A stretch of 25,084 nt of DNA from a virus. The notes under the pieces were generated by a model. That model saw only the letters and a list, made by a program, of their open reading frames with translations, was not told the DNA's origin and did not search any database. The stretch's first letter is position 1. Every line of letters starts with the position of its first letter. Where the stretch lies: the IMG/VR virus record IMGVR_UViG_3300042896_000337, positions 1 through 25,084 of that record, one strand, 5' to 3'. Positions 9,581 through 23,935 of this stretch are shown here, one piece after another. A program made the translations under genes and the position numbers.

Positions 9581-10744
9581 CTATTGGTTTTTAATTTTTG
9601 AAGCCGTTTCTTTGAATTTTAATGTATAGCTTATATCACGCTTGTCGTTAATCATTGTTTTTTTAACGAAATCAGAATCAACACACGTTACTGGGACTTG
9701 TAAATAAGTTGAATAATAGCCAACATCTCCAACGGTAATAGTATCGCTATCAACTGTTATCGTTTCATTATCAATTGTTATAATATCATTGTCAACTGTT
9801 ATCCCCACTTGCGCCGTTGTAAATTTATCACCATAAAATCTAATCAAATAAATCTTTGGCGAATAAATAAGCTCTTCTATTAATGCGTTCATACTTTCAT
9901 CTAATACTCCCGTATTTACTGTATATGTTTGAAATACCTCTTCAATACTTGTATTTTTAAAATGCGTGCTTGATACATTTATCATTGTGCTATCTCGAAA
10001 CACTTTTGCACTTTCTTGTCGTTTGGTTTCTGTATTTATGACAATCTTGCCAATAGTAGTTAGGTATTGAAACAATCCTTGTTGATCTAAGTAAATAAAC
10101 AATAACGGTTCTTTTACGCAAATTGTTTCGGATGGGATTAATTGAGTAGTAATAATGAAATTATTGCTAGTGCGATTAATACCAAAAGCGAAGGATTGGG
10201 TGGCGTAGTACGGTATAAGGTCTGCATATTTTTTTATCGGTGTTTCAACTATATTAAATCCATTTGAATTACCAACATACGAGCCATAAAACGGAGCTTC
10301 TTCCGTTCCCCATCTTTTACCTAATGTAGCTACTTTGTCAGTCACATCGATAGCTGCAACGCTTGTTGTTTCGTCATACGCATAGTAAGAGTATCGATAA
10401 AACAAACACATCCCTTGAACGTATGGCAAACTAGTATTGTGATATAGTAATACTGGAAAATCTACATTGTTTAAATTTTCTTTTCTTACTAAATCATTTT
10501 TTAATCTATCTTGAATTTCAAAAGAAACATACTTATCGTCATTTGAAATTCTCGCTTTGTCTAATGGGTGTATAGTAACATTTACCTCTTCTAACGCGTC
10601 ATTAATATCGAACGTAGTTAATTGCAGTCTAATTCGAGTATTGATATTACTAGGCACGTATGCAGGAAAATCAGTAAGTAAGTCAATCCTTATGGTGACT
10701 GGCGAATTACAAAATGCAACTTGTGAAATATCTGTTATATTCAT
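9581..10744 (-). CDS. Tail protein of unknown role with a heptapeptide repeat
   Basis: This 387-residue beta-rich protein is coded between tail-completion-type genes and the large tail-tip gene, so it is probably a tail or baseplate component. Near its C-terminus it has a run of seven-residue repeats of form [VI]D[NS][DE]xIT, three copies in a row, encoded by 21-base DNA repeats (9731-9804). The repeats alternate hydrophobic and acidic residues and could form a beta solenoid edge or a calcium-binding strand set; this is inference. The start overlaps the previous gene by four bases (ATGA). No known domain could be named. Confidence 0.55.
   Translation of the reverse strand: MNITDISQVAFCNSPVTIRIDLLTDFPAYVPSNINTRIRLQLTTFDINDALEEVNVTIHPLDKARISNDDKYVSFEIQDRLKNDLVRKENLNNVDFPVLLYHNTSLPYVQGMCLFYRYSYYAYDETTSVAAIDVTDKVATLGKRWGTEEAPFYGSYVGNSNGFNIVETPIKKYADLIPYYATQSFAFGINRTSNNFIITTQLIPSETICVKEPLLFIYLDQQGLFQYLTTIGKIVINTETKRQESAKVFRDSTMINVSSTHFKNTSIEEVFQTYTVNTGVLDESMNALIEELIYSPKIYLIRFYGDKFTTAQVGITVDNDIITIDNETITVDSDTITVGDVGYYSTYLQVPVTCVDSDFVKKTMINDKRDISYTLKFKETASKIKNQ
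9731..9804 (-). repeat. 21-bp in-frame tandem repeat, 3.5 copies
   Basis: Units at 9731-9751, 9752-9772 and 9773-9793, plus a partial one at 9794-9804, share the pattern AAYKGTWATnnTnTCnnTnTC on the plus strand. As the period is 21 bases, gain or loss of a unit changes the protein by seven residues without breaking the frame. The copies differ at several positions, so they are not a very recent duplication. Confidence 0.75.
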
Positions 10745-14578: not shown

Positions 14579-14851
14579 TTAAATAGTTAAGTTTTCTGGA
14601 TATATAATTCCGTCAATATTGTGAAGACAAAAAGCAATTTTACCTAATTTATTTATTTCATCTATTCGTAATTTTTGCAACTCTTTCAAAGCGTCTTTTC
14701 CTTCTTTACACTCAATCCAAATATCGATTTCATTTTCCTTCATACATAAAATATCAGGATAACCATTATCTGAAAGTCTAATTATTTTTAATACCGTCCA
14801 TCCGTTAGACTCGTAATTTTTAATCGTTTTAGTTTGAAAATTTGACGCCAT
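14579..14851 (-). CDS. VRR-NUC domain nuclease
   Basis: This 90-residue protein is a minimal VRR-NUC (PD-(D/E)XK) nuclease. The visible core is GYPD at 30-33 (Asp33), then IWIECKEG with Glu47 and Lys49, and LKELQKLR with Gln59. These match the family pattern GxPDxxx...ExKxxxxxxxxxQ. VRR-NUC proteins of phages are usually coded beside an SF2 helicase, and the group is thought to process branched or flap DNA during replication or repair; the exact substrate is unknown. The start overlaps the helicase gene by 23 bases. Length is normal for the stand-alone phage form. Confidence 0.85.
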   Translation of the reverse strand: MASNFQTKTIKNYESNGWTVLKIIRLSDNGYPDILCMKENEIDIWIECKEGKDALKELQKLRIDEINKLGKIAFCLHNIDGIIYPENLTI

Positions 14852-16061
14852 AATCTTTTTTGAATTGTGATAAAGTGTAATTTTTTTTACTCATTATCGA
14901 TTTATAAATATAACTTTCAATACCTTGTTTTGCAAAAATCCAAAATACATTGTTTTCTTTTCTATCCATTGTAGTTAAACGATCTCGAGATTGCCAGTAA
15001 GAAGTAGCTGAAAAATCAGGCGTTAAATAAACTAAGTAATCGGCATTTTTTAAACTTATTCCCTCGCGTCCTGAAATTATTTGCAATGCTATATTTTTAT
15101 TTGTCGTGTCAAAAGTTTCTAAGTCAAAACAAACATCATCACCATAAAATCCTTTTATCATTTCTAATTCCGTTTGGAATTTATAAAATATTGCAATCTT
15201 ATTATTTTTAAATTTTTCATTTATAAAAACTAGTTTTGAGTTATCCAAAACAATTCCGTTGCCGCTTTCTAAAATAACCGTACCGGAATAAAGTTGATGC
15301 AATTTGCTCATTAATTTTACAGCCGTATCCCCTAATATCAAATCTTTTGAACCTTTAAATAATTTATCTTTTTTCAATACTTTGGCGATATTATAAATTA
15401 TAGGCTTCATTTCAACTTCTAAAATAGTTTCATTTACTTTTGTTTCAAAACCTGCCTGTTCTTGAGTAAAAGTAATCATATATTTTTGAGTTAATTTTTT
15501 AATACGTTCCTGATAGGCGTCTGAATAATCATTTACTTCAGCATATCCAAGGTATTTTTTTTTAACATTAACATAATATTTTGCCCACTTGTAAAAATTA
15601 ATATAATCTTTAAACGGTGTGTAATTAGATAACCAGAATTGATGATAAATTTGAGAATAACTTTCCGGTGTCGGCGTTCCTGATAAAAATATCATCGGTA
15701 AATGTGAAAACTTTTCTTTGATAATTTTAGTTGCATTGTTTGGCTTTGGAAAAGCTCCGTTTCTATGATGCTCATCACTTATCACTAAATCATATTTTTC
15801 TTTGATTAAATGGACGCTTTCATTATTTATAACGGTTATCTCATAATCATAATTAAACGCTTTAAAATCGCTTAAAATTGAGTTTATAGCTTTTTTCTTT
15901 GTTAAGAATAAAACTTTTTTTGCTCCGTATAACTTTGCAGTTTCTAAAGCCATTAATGTTTTTCCAGTTCTAACTTCACAGCATAAATAAACTATCTTTA
16001 ATTTTGAAAGTATTTCGTTTGCTTTTTCAGCTATTTCTTTTTGATATTGTCTTAATTCCAT
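14829..16061 (-). CDS. SF2 DEAD/DEAH-type helicase (SNF2-like phage helicase)
   Basis: I start at the ATG at 16059-16061 (MELRQYQKEIAEKANEIL), giving 410 residues. An ATG 78 bases upstream would encode a cysteine-rich leader made only of the TGTAACA repeats (CNIDCNIHCNI), so it is unlikely. Motifs: Q-like QYQ, Walker A EVRTGKT (29-35), DEHH box (96-99), motif III SGTPTP (127-132), and C-terminal motifs V and VI (ISGREGISL and SYWQSRDRL). It probably unwinds branched or origin DNA in phage replication, together with the VRR-NUC protein. The gene begins at the edge of the candidate origin. Confidence 0.85.
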   Translation of the reverse strand: MELRQYQKEIAEKANEILSKLKIVYLCCEVRTGKTLMALETAKLYGAKKVLFLTKKKAINSILSDFKAFNYDYEITVINNESVHLIKEKYDLVISDEHHRNGAFPKPNNATKIIKEKFSHLPMIFLSGTPTPESYSQIYHQFWLSNYTPFKDYINFYKWAKYYVNVKKKYLGYAEVNDYSDAYQERIKKLTQKYMITFTQEQAGFETKVNETILEVEMKPIIYNIAKVLKKDKLFKGSKDLILGDTAVKLMSKLHQLYSGTVILESGNGIVLDNSKLVFINEKFKNNKIAIFYKFQTELEMIKGFYGDDVCFDLETFDTTNKNIALQIISGREGISLKNADYLVYLTPDFSATSYWQSRDRLTTMDRKENNVFWIFAKQGIESYIYKSIMSKKNYTLSQFKKDYGVKFSN

Positions 16062-16079
16062 AATTTTCTTACTTTTTAG

Positions 16080-16344
16080 TGTAACATTGTAAAAAATGTT
16101 ACAGTGAATGTTACAGTCAATGTTACAGTAGTTTTTCAATGTTTATAAGGCTTCGCATCGTTTTTACTGTAACATGTTACACTTTGTGTTTAAAATTAAT
16201 TATTTTTTTTATTTTACTTTTTTTTATTATTTCTTACTGTAACTGTAACATGTTACACTTTTTCTTTGTTAAGTACTATAAACATTGACTTTTTACTGTA
16301 ACATTTAGTGTAACACTGTAACATTTAAAAATTATTTTGTTACA
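16080..16344. other. Candidate replication origin: iteron-like TGTAACA/TGTTACA array
   Basis: Twelve perfect copies of TGTAACA or its complement TGTTACA lie within 265 bases: plus-strand TGTAACA at 16080, 16168, 16244, 16297, 16309 and 16317, and TGTTACA at 16097, 16109, 16121, 16175, 16251 and 16338. Copies at 16097, 16109 and 16121 are exactly 12 bases apart, and so are 16297 and 16309. Two abutting pairs form the 14-base palindrome TGTAACATGTTACA. A T-rich core lies at 16185-16235. The array fills the gap between primase-helicase and helicase genes, the last copy being inside the primase 3' end. I infer an origin or dense operator; neither has been tested. Confidence 0.7.
16109..16315. repeat. 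Large imperfect inverted repeat around the AT-rich core
   Basis: The arms 16109-16147 and 16277-16315 are 39 bases each and match as inverted copies at 32 positions by eye. Each carries two TGTTACA boxes and ends in an 11-base perfect block (TATAAACATTG and its complement). Between the arms lie the two palindromic box pairs and the T-rich core. The dyad symmetry suggests bidirectional assembly of a binding protein. Confidence 0.75.
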
Positions 16345-18587
16345 GTTTCAAACTCTTTAATCCATCTTGTTATGCTCATTCTGGATATTCCTAAGAGTTC
16401 AGCTGTTTCGCTTCGATTAAAGTCTTTTTTACTTTTCCAAATCTCGTGTAACTTCTCTTTTTCGCTTTTTCCTTTATTAGCTACAATAGTATTTTTAAGT
16501 TTTGAGACCTCAATAGAATTGACTTTTATTTTTTTTGCAGTTGCCACAAAGTACTTACTTAATTTTTCAGCTTTTAAGATGCTTTCTTTTGATATTAGTA
16601 AAGTATTGCCACCTTCAGAAAAGAACTCGTCAAATGTATGAATTAAGCACGCAAAACGAGGAATATAACTCTTTTGCTTAGGCAGCATTGACTTTAAATA
16701 TTCATTTTCATTTTCATCATTCTGGATTATGGTTGTTTCATTAAACATTCTAATCCATTCTTTTTTTGCGTCCTCCGAAAAAATAGCAGTCATAGGTATT
16801 ATTTCGCCATCTTCATTACGTTTGATAATTCCTTTTAAAGTATCGTAAAACATAATAATTGATTCTTTGTACCAAATTAATGTATTTTCGTCAATCTCTT
16901 TTTCGTTGTAACAATCAATTTTTAAATCAGGAAATGACAATAACATCCTATCCATAAAACCATTATCTTTGTTTTCATCTGTATAAAATGAATTAAAAAT
17001 ACTCGGCTGTATACCTCCAAGAACAGGTATAAATGGTTTTTCAACAAATGAGCCAGCCCTTGTAAGTCTGTTTAGGTTTACGCTTTTACCGGACCATGTA
17101 GACAGCCAAAATTCCAAATCAGAACCTTCTCTATATTTATTCATGTCTTTTAACCACCCTGCCAGTTCGTCTTTAAAAACTCCAACCGCATTATCACTTT
17201 CTTGATGTAAATCAACTAAGGCCTCAAGTGTAATGTCGTTTGCAATAAATTGGTTTTTCTTTGGTGCAAAAACCTCATTGTGTTCTTCTTTTTCTTTTTT
17301 ACTCAAAGCGGTATAAAAATCAAATTTTTCACGCTCTTTAATATAGGTTTTTATTTCTTTTTGATTAATTTTTACAAGCGGTGAAATCACATTTGATATT
17401 GAAGGAGTTTTTCCAAGCCCGGCTTTTCCAACAATAGAAATCCAAACGGTTAAATTTTCAATCCATCCTTTTTTTACCTCTACATTTATTGAATTTCCAA
17501 CACAAACAGAAATTAACCAAAGCATTGAGCATCCCATATAATCAATTGAACTGTCTAATTTAGAATTGCATTCAGTTAAATAATTTTGCATTTCAGTAGG
17601 GAAAATTTCAATAGGAAAAACCAAATCATTTTCGTTTATGTTTGGTTTTTCCTCATTAGATTGCATCGATATTTTAGGTTTAATCTCATTTACAATTTTT
17701 TTTAAACGAGATCCAAAACCTTTTGCATATAAATCTTTTGCTCCATCTGATAAATTACCATTATGGTTTTTCCAGCAGTACGCAATAAATGGACTTATTT
17801 GTTTTTCGTGTGGGTAAATTGTACCAGTGGAAAAAAGATACATTAATCCATCCTCTTTATAAACATATCCAGAGTGCGGACTTTCTGAACCGTGTCTTTT
17901 TATAACGTACTTTTTATTATGGTTTGCTACTATTGAAAAATCACTTCCAATAATTTCAAAAATATCAGTTTTTTGATTGAAGTCATCCCAACACGCTATT
18001 TCATTTTCTTGATACTCTTGTTTTTTCTTTACCAGCTCAATTGGAAGTTCATTTACATAATTGTAAGTTCTGGAACAGCTCCATAAAATTTCCCTATCTT
18101 CTTCGCTTATTTCTTTGATTTCGTGATAGTTAATTTTTGACAAAGTATCATCGTAAGCGATAACCATTCCGCCAATCCCTCTACTTTCAATCAATGCCTC
18201 AGGATTGCCCTTTAGTTTTGCAATCTTAGTATTTCCTTTTAACGTTTTGCATCGATAAAGAATATGATAGCCTTTATTTAGAGTTTTTTTAATTACAAAT
18301 TTCTTTTCAAAGTCATCAATATTATCAGTTAAAAATCCTAAATACTCATCCCAAAACTCTTTTTGTTCTTTTAAAGTAGACAAAGTTTTGCAATCAATAT
18401 CGATAACCTCAAGATTATTATATCCTGTTACAAGTCCAAATTTAGGGCTATTAAGTTGTTCAATTTCTTCGGGAGTTCTTGCCGTTGTTTGTGCGTTTTT
18501 CCAAGCCCCAATAGGTGCTTTATTTTCTGCACAAGGGATAACCGAAAATCCGTTTTCAGCTAACTTTTTTAAATAATGCTTTTCCAT
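16332..18587 (-). CDS. Prim-Pol / DUF3987-type primase-helicase with C-terminal HTH
   Basis: This 751-residue replication protein has three parts. Residues 1 to about 170 are a primase-polymerase-like domain: FGLVTGYNNLEVIDIDCK with Asp63 and Asp65 as metal ligands, and GYHILYR with His108. Residues about 330-640 are a DUF3987/D5-like ATPase with Walker A GKAGLGKT (387-394) and a later acidic VFKDELAGWLKDM. The C-terminal end has a helix-turn-helix (NRSETAELLGISRMSITRWI). Such proteins start DNA synthesis and unwind DNA. The HTH could bind the iteron array at its own 3' end; that is inference. The start overlaps the preceding gene by one base (TAATG). Confidence 0.85.
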   Translation of the reverse strand: MEKHYLKKLAENGFSVIPCAENKAPIGAWKNAQTTARTPEEIEQLNSPKFGLVTGYNNLEVIDIDCKTLSTLKEQKEFWDEYLGFLTDNIDDFEKKFVIKKTLNKGYHILYRCKTLKGNTKIAKLKGNPEALIESRGIGGMVIAYDDTLSKINYHEIKEISEEDREILWSCSRTYNYVNELPIELVKKKQEYQENEIACWDDFNQKTDIFEIIGSDFSIVANHNKKYVIKRHGSESPHSGYVYKEDGLMYLFSTGTIYPHEKQISPFIAYCWKNHNGNLSDGAKDLYAKGFGSRLKKIVNEIKPKISMQSNEEKPNINENDLVFPIEIFPTEMQNYLTECNSKLDSSIDYMGCSMLWLISVCVGNSINVEVKKGWIENLTVWISIVGKAGLGKTPSISNVISPLVKINQKEIKTYIKEREKFDFYTALSKKEKEEHNEVFAPKKNQFIANDITLEALVDLHQESDNAVGVFKDELAGWLKDMNKYREGSDLEFWLSTWSGKSVNLNRLTRAGSFVEKPFIPVLGGIQPSIFNSFYTDENKDNGFMDRMLLSFPDLKIDCYNEKEIDENTLIWYKESIIMFYDTLKGIIKRNEDGEIIPMTAIFSEDAKKEWIRMFNETTIIQNDENENEYLKSMLPKQKSYIPRFACLIHTFDEFFSEGGNTLLISKESILKAEKLSKYFVATAKKIKVNSIEVSKLKNTIVANKGKSEKEKLHEIWKSKKDFNRSETAELLGISRMSITRWIKEFETVTK

Positions 18588-20649: not shown

Positions 20650-21513
20650 TTATCTTATTTCAGATGATAAATATTCAAAATTACAACCGCCCGCAACAAA
20701 CCCCATTTGAACCCCACCTCCAAAAGGATTGTAAATTCTACATCCGTTTGTAGGCATAAACATTCTGGCAATAATCTCACAAGCCGTTGGATCTAAAACA
20801 GACGCGTTACCATTTAAGTCTTTTGTTTTATCAGTTATAATTTCGCCGTCTTTAACTGTTTGTTTCGATAACACAACATTTGACATTCCGGCTTTACCTT
20901 GCCAACATCCCTCGCGACTTGCAAACTTAGGATTAGGAATATTATATTTTCTTCCCGCTTCTTCTAATTGTTCATTCCAAGCTCTTTTTACTTTTAACCA
21001 TTCCCCAGATGTAGAGTTCCATAAATTAGTCATTGCCATATGGCATAGTCTTTTTATCCTAACCTGCTCTTCTTTTCCATAATAAATATAAGTAAAATCG
21101 CTTTTAGCTAAATTTACTTTAAAACCAAGTGCTAAAAATACTTTTGGATTTTCTAATTTATGCTTATTAGAAACCGTCATTACCATATGATACCCATTAG
21201 TATTTTGATCTATAATTTTTTGCACCATCATTGAGTAAATTTCTTTACATTCTTTGCCGGGATACATTGCGCTTTGCAATAAACAAAATTCTTTTACGTT
21301 ATGATTTACTTCATAAGTAAAAAAACCGCTAAACTCATCATTAATTTTTAAAATAATAGCGGAATGTTTTTGCATATTAGCTCTAGCTGCTCTATAGGCA
21401 ATTTTATCAATTAATGCTAATTCAGCTACTTGTGTTTCGTAACCAGACCCGATGACACTATCCAATTGGATAAGCTCAATTTTTTCTTCAAATAAACTAG
21501 GTTGTTTTTTCAT
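20650..21513 (-). CDS. GNAT-like domain fused to N-terminal half of a DNA methyltransferase
   Basis: This 287-residue product has two parts. Residues about 25-135 follow the GNAT fold order: strand SAIILKINDE, strand FSGFFTYEV, strand CLLQSAMYPG then helix KECKEIYSMMVQKIIDQ, and the final NPKVFLALGFKV, typical of 'NxxAxxxYxxxGF'. Residues 150-287 are the start of an N4/N6-type methyltransferase, with DPTACEIIARMF, motif I NPFGGG (262-267, normally DPFxGxG) and motif II acidic SEIR (284-287). The frame then stops at TAA instead of continuing into motif IV. With the following same-frame segment the intact enzyme would be 463 residues. The preceding leader is highly structured. Function may be DNA base hypermodification. 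Confidence 0.65.
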   Translation of the reverse strand: MKKQPSLFEEKIELIQLDSVIGSGYETQVAELALIDKIAYRAARANMQKHSAIILKINDEFSGFFTYEVNHNVKEFCLLQSAMYPGKECKEIYSMMVQKIIDQNTNGYHMVMTVSNKHKLENPKVFLALGFKVNLAKSDFTYIYYGKEEQVRIKRLCHMAMTNLWNSTSGEWLKVKRAWNEQLEEAGRKYNIPNPKFASREGCWQGKAGMSNVVLSKQTVKDGEIITDKTKDLNGNASVLDPTACEIIARMFMPTNGCRIYNPFGGGVQMGFVAGGCNFEYLSSEIR

Positions 21514-23170: not shown

Positions 23171-23935
23171 TTACAAATATTTAAAATTAGTATTGTTTTT
23201 CATTTGTCCATTTAATCTTTTCTGAATAGTCCATTTGCTTATATTTAGCATTTCAGCTAATTCAGTAGCTGAGGTATAAATCTCACCCGTTTCTACATTA
23301 ATTACTTTTCTTTTTAAAGAATTTGATATTTTATTTTTAGTAATTTCAGATAATATCCTGTCTTTGCATCTTGTATTTCCTAATGATGAAAAACTCATTT
23401 TTTTCTTTGTTTCATTTGAAACTTTTCTGCCTTTACAATATTGATTATTTAAATGTATTCTACTTATTTTGTCTAAAGTTTCTTTGCTGTGTGTTTTTCC
23501 ATAAAATGAGTTTTTATCTCCATTTCTACCAAACATAGGATTATTTTTTCCTTTCATTCTATTGGATTTCTTTAAACAAGTTTCTTTAGATTGCTTCATT
23601 CCAGTTCTTGTTATTGACATTTTTAACCTTGTTTCTTGACTGGCTTTTCCATTTCTGTCACTAGAAGTTGTTAAGCTACAATTTAAACCGTTTTTTGAAG
23701 TAGCATTATATAAATCCTGATAATATCGTTCTTTGTCATTCAACTCTGAAACTTCACATTCGCACAATATTTCAAATTTATGATTATCAAAACCATATTT
23801 TAAAAATGAATTTCTCAATCTTGGCTGGTCGAATGGTATTTTATATTTATAAGACTTAAATCTTTTTTCAATATCAATACTTTGTCCAATATAAACTCTT
23901 TTACTCTTACTTGTTATTTTATAAATTCCTATCAT
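23171..23935 (-). CDS. Freestanding GIY-YIG homing endonuclease
   Basis: This 254-residue protein has a GIY-YIG nuclease domain at residues 1-95 (GIYKI at 3-7, YIG at 15-17, Arg25 in KRFKSYK, and a DKERYYQ helix), then repeated NUMOD3-like DNA-binding motifs (NNPMFGRNGDKNSFYGKTHS, SKETCLKKS and KGRKVSNETKKKMS). A C-terminal NUMOD1/IENR1-like HTH follows (TSATELAEMLNISKWTIQKR). This is the domain order of SegA/I-TevI-like mobile endonucleases. It stands alone between the conserved early gene and the exonuclease and abuts the latter. The protein is very lysine- and asparagine-rich and more AT-rich in codon use than neighbours, in line with insertion. Confidence 0.9.
   Translation of the reverse strand: MIGIYKITSKSKRVYIGQSIDIEKRFKSYKYKIPFDQPRLRNSFLKYGFDNHKFEILCECEVSELNDKERYYQDLYNATSKNGLNCSLTTSSDRNGKASQETRLKMSITRTGMKQSKETCLKKSNRMKGKNNPMFGRNGDKNSFYGKTHSKETLDKISRIHLNNQYCKGRKVSNETKKKMSFSSLGNTRCKDRILSEITKNKISNSLKRKVINVETGEIYTSATELAEMLNISKWTIQKRLNGQMKNNTNFKYL

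Follow-up and report, generated by a model that had tools for sequence, protein, structure and literature searches.

Iteron plasmid Rep proteins are devoid of primase and helicase domains and depend on the host for a helicase, which they recruit. In SaPIbov1 the iterons flank an A/T-rich region, the initiator Cch is MCM-like, and in P4 alpha the primase is of the Toprim type and the helicase belongs to SF3. In iteron plasmids the origin combines short repeats with an A/T-rich region for unwinding, both next to the initiator gene (PMC4980987). In the case of SaPI Rep and of the SCCmec proteins Cch and Cch2, iterons that lie immediately downstream of the initiator helicase gene are recognised by the C-terminal domain of its product; binding by SCCmec Cch2 depends on the short repeats, and a model of self-loading has been put forward (PMC7581432). 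The alpha protein of satellite phage P4, as discussed in PMC4234260, unites a primase, a helicase and a DNA-binding domain at its C-terminus and acts at an iteron origin, its sites being ori1 and crr. The pRN1 origin has no iterons; it is a stem-loop of 100 bp that follows closely on the primase-helicase gene ORF904 on its downstream side, and the product of ORF904 has an SF3 helicase with winged helix and a C-terminal DNA-binding domain (PMC4234260). A residue-base covariation with iterons has been described for the iteron-related domain of geminivirus Rep (Arguello-Astorga and Ruiz-Medrano, 2001, as cited in PMC12548392).

The heptamer array and the initiator candidate beside it

The window, by which we mean the whole stretch of viral DNA analysed (25,084 bases), contains 15 exact copies of TGTAACA/TGTTACA, against a mean of 5.2 and a maximum of 12 in shuffled sequence, and 12 of the 15 lie, on either strand, within only 265 bases (16080–16344). 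In 60 dinucleotide shuffles the top heptamer count per 265 bp was on average 4.1 and at most 5, and for the intergenic gap alone the count was 11, a value of 5 never being exceeded in 500 shuffles. The 12-copy array, for which the initial annotation had claimed an excess over chance, is thus confirmed; counts, shuffles and the relatives described below are the grounds on which it is proposed to be a replication origin. Since the three copies outside the array are scattered in the window, the heptamer is not spread over the genome at similar density, the pattern that had been named as speaking against an origin.

Two pairs of iterons form perfect 14-base palindromes (TGTAACATGTTACA at 16168–16181 and again at 16244–16257), both of which proved exact on inspection of the sequence. 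In other respects the array is less regular than first described. A spacing of 12 bases in two groups holds for the three minus-strand iterons at 16097, 16109 and 16121 (16097–16127), 10–12 bp being the commonest spacing over all loci, but in the second group a single 12-base spacing is followed by one of 8. The 39-base arms 16109–16147 and 16277–16315 are indeed complementary, but only to 82%, and the inverted repeat is therefore imperfect. A T-rich core does lie between the arms, its position being corrected to 16203–16232 (plus strand), where 25 of 30 bases are T; it is found at the centre of the array (relative position 0.48) and is a candidate DNA unwinding element. The array fills the gap between the primase-helicase and the helicase gene (16062–16331) but extends beyond it, the outermost iteron (16338–16344, minus strand) being located within the last codons of the primase gene (V-T-K). 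In the loci L030 (1895–2201) and L022 (7304–7614), short repeats with other, unrelated units (AGCGTTG and CAAATTAGCA) were also seen densely packed away from the iteron site.

The gene on one side of the array (16332–18587, minus strand) encodes a protein of 751 amino acids in which, according to domain search and fold models, primase, helicase and the proposed origin-binding domain are united (AlphaFold2 model with pLDDT 83.8). The PrimPol domain (aa 8–149; 18141–18566, minus strand; Prim-Pol, E = 2.8e-9) has as its best Foldseek match the prim-pol domain of pRN1 ORF904 (E = 5.9e-6). The helicase domain (aa 327–699; 16491–17609, minus strand) is matched by DUF3987 over aa 347–687 with E = 1.7e-51, and in the structure search MCM chains rank first (best Z 17.3; rmsd 3.5–5.3 over about 270 aligned residues), which is why we call it an MCM-like AAA+ domain. 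The proposed iteron-binding domain is the C-terminal helix-turn-helix (HTH; aa 709–750; 16338–16463, minus strand), with a match to HTH_23 (aa 708–747, E = 5.9e-6); modelled in isolation the C-terminus forms a three-helix HTH with pLDDT 91.7, the fold matches of which, homeodomain- or Lrp-type, are weak (Z about 6). It includes the recognition octamer SRMSITRW (aa 735–742; 16362–16385, minus strand), whose residues R736 (X2), M737 (X3) and R741 (X7) belong to positions that covary with motif positions 2, 4 and 6, respectively. On the other side of the array there adjoins a ResIII/SNF2-type helicase gene (14829–16061, minus strand; domain search), which stands outside the code and marks the syntenic position.

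GC skew had been suggested as a check on the origin, and here the expectation was not borne out: the codon-third-position skew is 0.083 and 0.082 on the two sides of the array, with no change of sign. A skew without a switch at the array is, however, weak evidence either way. No Rfam families were found in the window or in the related loci L061 and L206. Elsewhere in the window, an open reading frame at 23171–23935, which starts with MIGIYKITSKSKRVYIGQS, is a putative GIY-YIG homing endonuclease-like gene inserted beside the gene of a YqaJ-type recombinase; another at 20650–21513, ending in NPFGGGVQMGFVAGGCNFEYLSSEIR, resembles the N-terminal part of a DNA methyltransferase, its sole match being phrog_12517 (unknown function); and the protein encoded at 9581–10744 carries short peptide repeats (NDIITIDNETITVDSDTITVGD) in its C-terminal part.

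Arrays at related primase-helicase genes

Scans of viral and genome contigs yielded 161 distinct homologues with a readable C-terminus, to which 42 proteins were added later, so that 203 distinct viral homologues were available; the array motifs were found de novo by word finding that is blind to the protein. An array is present beside the gene in 180 of the 203 (143 of 161 in the first set and 37 of 42 in the second), the figure of 143 leaving out L030, in which the tandem repeat upstream of the gene has a different unit (a coding-repeat artefact). For the remaining 23 homologues there was no above-threshold array near the gene. Searching the same locus in related phages, as had been recommended with the initial annotation, therefore did reveal the same kind of array. 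Across the 180 loci the repeated word varies, with one array per gene, and the six whole relative records (11–51 kb) each have a single array cluster and no second one.

The phage record collection searched contained no close relatives, only 13 records, all of less than 60% identity and each covering less than 60% of the protein, and among 395 Bacteroidota genomes the full-length protein was found in one assembly only, the others having helicase-only DUF3987 proteins. Where the genes for a YqaJ-type recombinase, SSB, primase, helicase and VRR-NUC were found, the neighbourhoods resemble each other except for the side on which the array lies. In 77 loci it is located downstream, its start coinciding with the primase stop codon or shortly preceding it, and in 66 upstream of the start codon, with about five switches by parsimony. 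In four loci (L006, L011, L025 and L045) the primase frame runs into the array, and a longer C-terminal tail is encoded by the iterons. Candidates for satellites that carry the array only were rejected: the arrays found in a 16-mer scan had the primase gene adjoining or sat at cut contig ends (L089, L090, L091), and L084 and L085 contained a lone palindrome only.

A typical array consists of 11–12 sites with a spacing peak at 10–12 bp, and its sites leave free some 52 bp where the A/T-biased tract lies. The position of this tract is rather constant in the 77 downstream arrays: it lies mid-array (median relative position 0.48, interquartile range 0.46–0.51), in 75 of the 77 it is the gene strand that is rich in A in the most A- or T-biased 30-mer, and the tract is more biased than most other intervals of the same locus, usually more than any comparable one. 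The claim of an origin-type anatomy is hence supported both by the repeats beside the initiator gene and by the A/T-rich tract at the array centre. Elements of the Bacteroidota-type −7 kind (TANNTTTG) are depleted on the gene strand of arrays (15 in 36.7 kb versus 1173 in 1102 kb), and in most arrays no internal promoter element was found. In the upstream lineage the array is closely followed, on the side of the primase gene, by promoter-like elements located at about −100 to −140 relative to that gene. In L061 and L070, the region some 20–110 bases upstream of the primase start shows a promoter-like TATATTTG, then a conserved inverted repeat GTAGACG...CGTCTAC and then a terminator-like CCCTCAATTTACGGGGTTTTTT, a leader that is possibly an attenuator.

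Repeats were also noticed at distant genes for helicase-only DUF3987 proteins in Bacteroidota assemblies. Five of these (L452–L456) have 8–9-copy arrays of TGGCGAA and GGCGGAA just after the stop codon, in which no A/T-rich core is visible, and in a further DUF3987 gene (L458) AACTGCA repeats follow the stop codon directly, the copy number being 7–9 across all six. An array after the gene may be a wider property of DUF3987 proteins.

Covariation of recognition helix and iteron

For the comparison of proteins with arrays the octamer was written as S-X2-X3-x-x-x-X7-(W/Y/L) and the motif aligned as T-b2-T-b4-A-b6. X2, X3 and X7 would correspond to positions 1, 2 and 6 of the recognition helix, those through which the HTHs of phage repressors classically contact bases. 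At X2, Arg is paired with G at b2, and Leu or Val with T; at X3, Arg is usually paired with G at b4, and other residues with A; at X7, Arg is paired with C at b6, and other residues with A. All four combinations of X3 and X7 are realised (TGTAAA, TGTAAC, TGTGAA and TGTGAC), and the window, in which SRMSITRW is combined with TGTAAC(A), fits the rule. In 101 dereplicated loci the counts with and without Arg were 74:0 versus 5:22 for X2 and G2 (p = 9e-18), 18:5 versus 1:77 for X3 and G4 (p = 2e-14) and 29:0 versus 2:70 for X7 and C6 (p = 3e-23), and mutual information has its maxima exactly at X2-b2 and X7-b6 and, for X3, at b4. The X3 rule, when applied automatically, fails at some loci, several of which are near-palindromic cores read in another register that were counted as failures.

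Because related sequences are not independent, pairs on disjoint paths of the protein-body tree were used. A change of residue was accompanied by the change of base in 23 of 23 such independent pairs for X7, in 14 of 18 for X3 and in 10 of 14 for X2, whereas the base changed in only 2/40 to 2/43 of the control pairs. A partial Mantel test of helix against motif, given the body, yielded r = 0.52 (0 of 2000 permutations), and of motif against body, given the helix, r = −0.05. Motif similarity was 0.90 for proteins with the same helix and a body identity below 65%, in 147 of 218 such pairs even with the arrays on opposite sides of the gene, and 0.63 for pairs more than 85% identical with different helices, the value for all pairs being 0.58. 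As far as can be judged from sequences, the motif tracks the recognition helix and not the rest of the protein. The view that the C-terminal domain of the primase-helicase is the partner of the array thereby gains strong support, residue by residue and in independent lineages, and a binding specificity of the HTH for the iterons may be strongly inferred.

The co-change is also seen over distance. Where the array is downstream, the codons of the HTH border directly on it, and it is at the HTH that sequences begin to diverge (L220/L238, L222/L228). In upstream loci the array is 2.2 kb away from the HTH codons, yet both co-change: with these loci alone, 9 of 9 independent pairs were concordant for X3 and 10 of 10 for X7. 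For example, the upstream loci L206 and L210, whose protein bodies are identical in 670 of 673 positions and whose DNA is 92–100% identical through the gene body, differ in the helix (SRQQIINL versus SRTQIQRL) and in the array too. L072, L073 and L101, whose proteins are 94–95% identical, are likewise divergent at array and HTH.

The rule was fixed in writing before the 42 further proteins were fetched, of which the 37 with arrays contributed 20 new helices. In these, Arg at X2 went with G in 16 of 16 cases and Arg at X7 with C in the one case available; non-Arg at X7 went with A in 17 of 19. Non-Arg at X2 gave T in only 2 of 4, because Lys also goes with G, and Arg at X3 gave G in 3 of 5, the misses occurring with Lys at X2 and X3. 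Over all 37 new arrays the association was significant for X2 (p = 3.5e-6) and X7 (p = 3.6e-5) but not for X3 (p = 0.11). In a leave-one-out comparison of 96 distinct helices, the nearest helix predicted the motif better than the nearest body (0.787 versus 0.655, p = 6e-7); with the 20 new helices alone it was not significantly better (0.627 versus 0.601, p = 0.27). The three-residue rule has little out-of-sample power, and prediction for unseen helices is weak. These mixed results indicate that the code exists but is not complete; Lys at X2 or X3 plays a part in it, as do other residues.

A proposed iteron origin, its rivals and known systems

We consider it very probable (about 0.86) that the array is the iteron part of a phage replication origin and that the adjacent PrimPol-MCM-like AAA+-HTH gene encodes its initiator. 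The recognition helix would bind each iteron, R736 reading G at position 2 and R741 reading C at position 6 of T-G-T-A-A-C, and M737 in place of Arg would go with A at position 4, as the covariation strongly suggests. From spacing and anatomy, the iterons, about one helical turn apart and on both sides of the A/T-rich tract, could load two sets of protomers. Helicase rings would then form, the tract would melt and the PrimPol domain would make primers, a course suggested by the domains and by SaPI Rep, P4 alpha and pRN1. By staying beside the initiator gene, the array would keep the cognate pair together.

Sites arranged in tandem and as palindromes, at intervals of about one turn, would also suit a repressor, and in the upstream lineage the array is close to promoter-like elements of the primase gene. 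It is nevertheless improbable that the primase protein binds the array solely to regulate its own or the next gene, without an origin function, since the array lies downstream of the primase in the lineage of the window and upstream in the other (77 versus 66 loci), is depleted in −7 elements and, with 7–20 sites around a central A/T tract, exceeds what an operator needs, and since the proposed binder is a primase-helicase. The central tract and the scarcity of −7 elements suit an iteron origin better than an operator. Many iteron plasmids have an origin that doubles as autoregulatory operator, a common feature of iteron Rep systems. Such dual use is conceivable here, too, the upstream arrays being near promoter-like elements, but we consider it unlikely, because most arrays are without an internal promoter element and a downstream array does not control the primase gene itself. 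The suggestion that the array is an operator at the same time is weakened accordingly by the paucity of −7 elements and the change of sides between lineages, and retains the position of the upstream arrays in its favour.

Short-repeat arrays serve also as pac, parS and operator sites, and terminase genes come after the helicase gene, so one could think of a packaging or partition site bound by another protein (a repressor, the small terminase subunit or a partition protein). This is the least probable of the alternatives, for it is with individual residues of the primase HTH, not with the rest of the primase, that the motif covaries, and the array stays beside the primase when it switches sides. 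Almost as improbable is a covariation without selection, in which HTH and array, being neighbours, recombine as one cassette. The downstream loci, where array and HTH codons adjoin and the sequences begin to diverge at the HTH, would agree with it; against it stand the upstream loci, both the joint change in L206/L210 across 2.2 kb of nearly identical DNA and the full concordance of the independent pairs, and linked transfer would not yield a rule from residue to base. An iteron origin with its own initiator thus stays our preferred reading. Tentatively, and with slightly less than even odds, we further propose that the three-residue HTH code defines many mutually exclusive types of origin specificity and that diversifying selection has repeatedly switched helix and array together, even when 2.2 kb apart. 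Such selection would stem from the avoidance of cross-initiation by coinfecting relatives or from escape from origin-copying satellites.

Since the word changes with three residues of the primase-helicase in about 180 genes, a natural lock-and-key code of initiator and origin appears to be recorded here. If this is true, the family offers a naturally occurring code, legible in the sequences, for the recognition of DNA by replication initiators. Its dozens of natural helix/array pairs, some only a few residues apart, permit a direct test of how the specificities of initiator and origin change jointly. DUF3987, a "domain of unknown function", becomes a testable MCM-like, self-priming initiator with origin and recognition rule derived from sequence alone. 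In the limited literature searched there was no description of iterons for this PrimPol-DUF3987-HTH family and, there being no close relative in the phage records searched, this would be, within the material searched, the first description for this group of viruses. What is known is the iteron origin with a dedicated initiator; what our findings support as new is the PrimPol-MCM-HTH initiator, the readable recognition code and the mobile position of the array.

In its proposed working mode the system comes closest to SaPI Rep and SCCmec Cch/Cch2, to P4 alpha and to pRN1 ORF904. Like SaPI Rep with its origin, it has an MCM-like AAA+ helicase, a predicted C-terminal DNA-binding domain and iterons directly downstream (in the window and the 77 loci). 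Unlike SaPI Rep, it combines PrimPol, MCM-like helicase and HTH in a single protein, belongs to full phages whose hosts are probably Bacteroidota, shows a readable residue-to-base code and can have the array on either side of the gene (upstream in 66 loci). With P4 alpha it shares the combination of primase, helicase and (here predicted) C-terminal DNA-binding domain in one protein at an iteron array. It is, however, not a member of the P4 alpha family because its primase is a Prim-Pol (AEP) and not of the Toprim type; the helicase, too, is MCM-like, and a second, crr-like cluster was absent from the six relative records. The PrimPol fold, the array just downstream of the primase-helicase gene and the predicted C-terminal DNA-binding domain are reminiscent of pRN1, but here there are iterons instead of a pRN1-type stem-loop, and an MCM-like helicase. 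The initiator residues covary with iteron bases among relatives as in geminivirus Rep, which is a rolling-circle HUH protein of ssDNA viruses with an unrelated fold. As in iteron plasmids, clustered short repeats and an A/T-rich region lie beside the initiator gene, but in contrast to iteron plasmid Rep proteins the initiator itself contains the primase and helicase domains.
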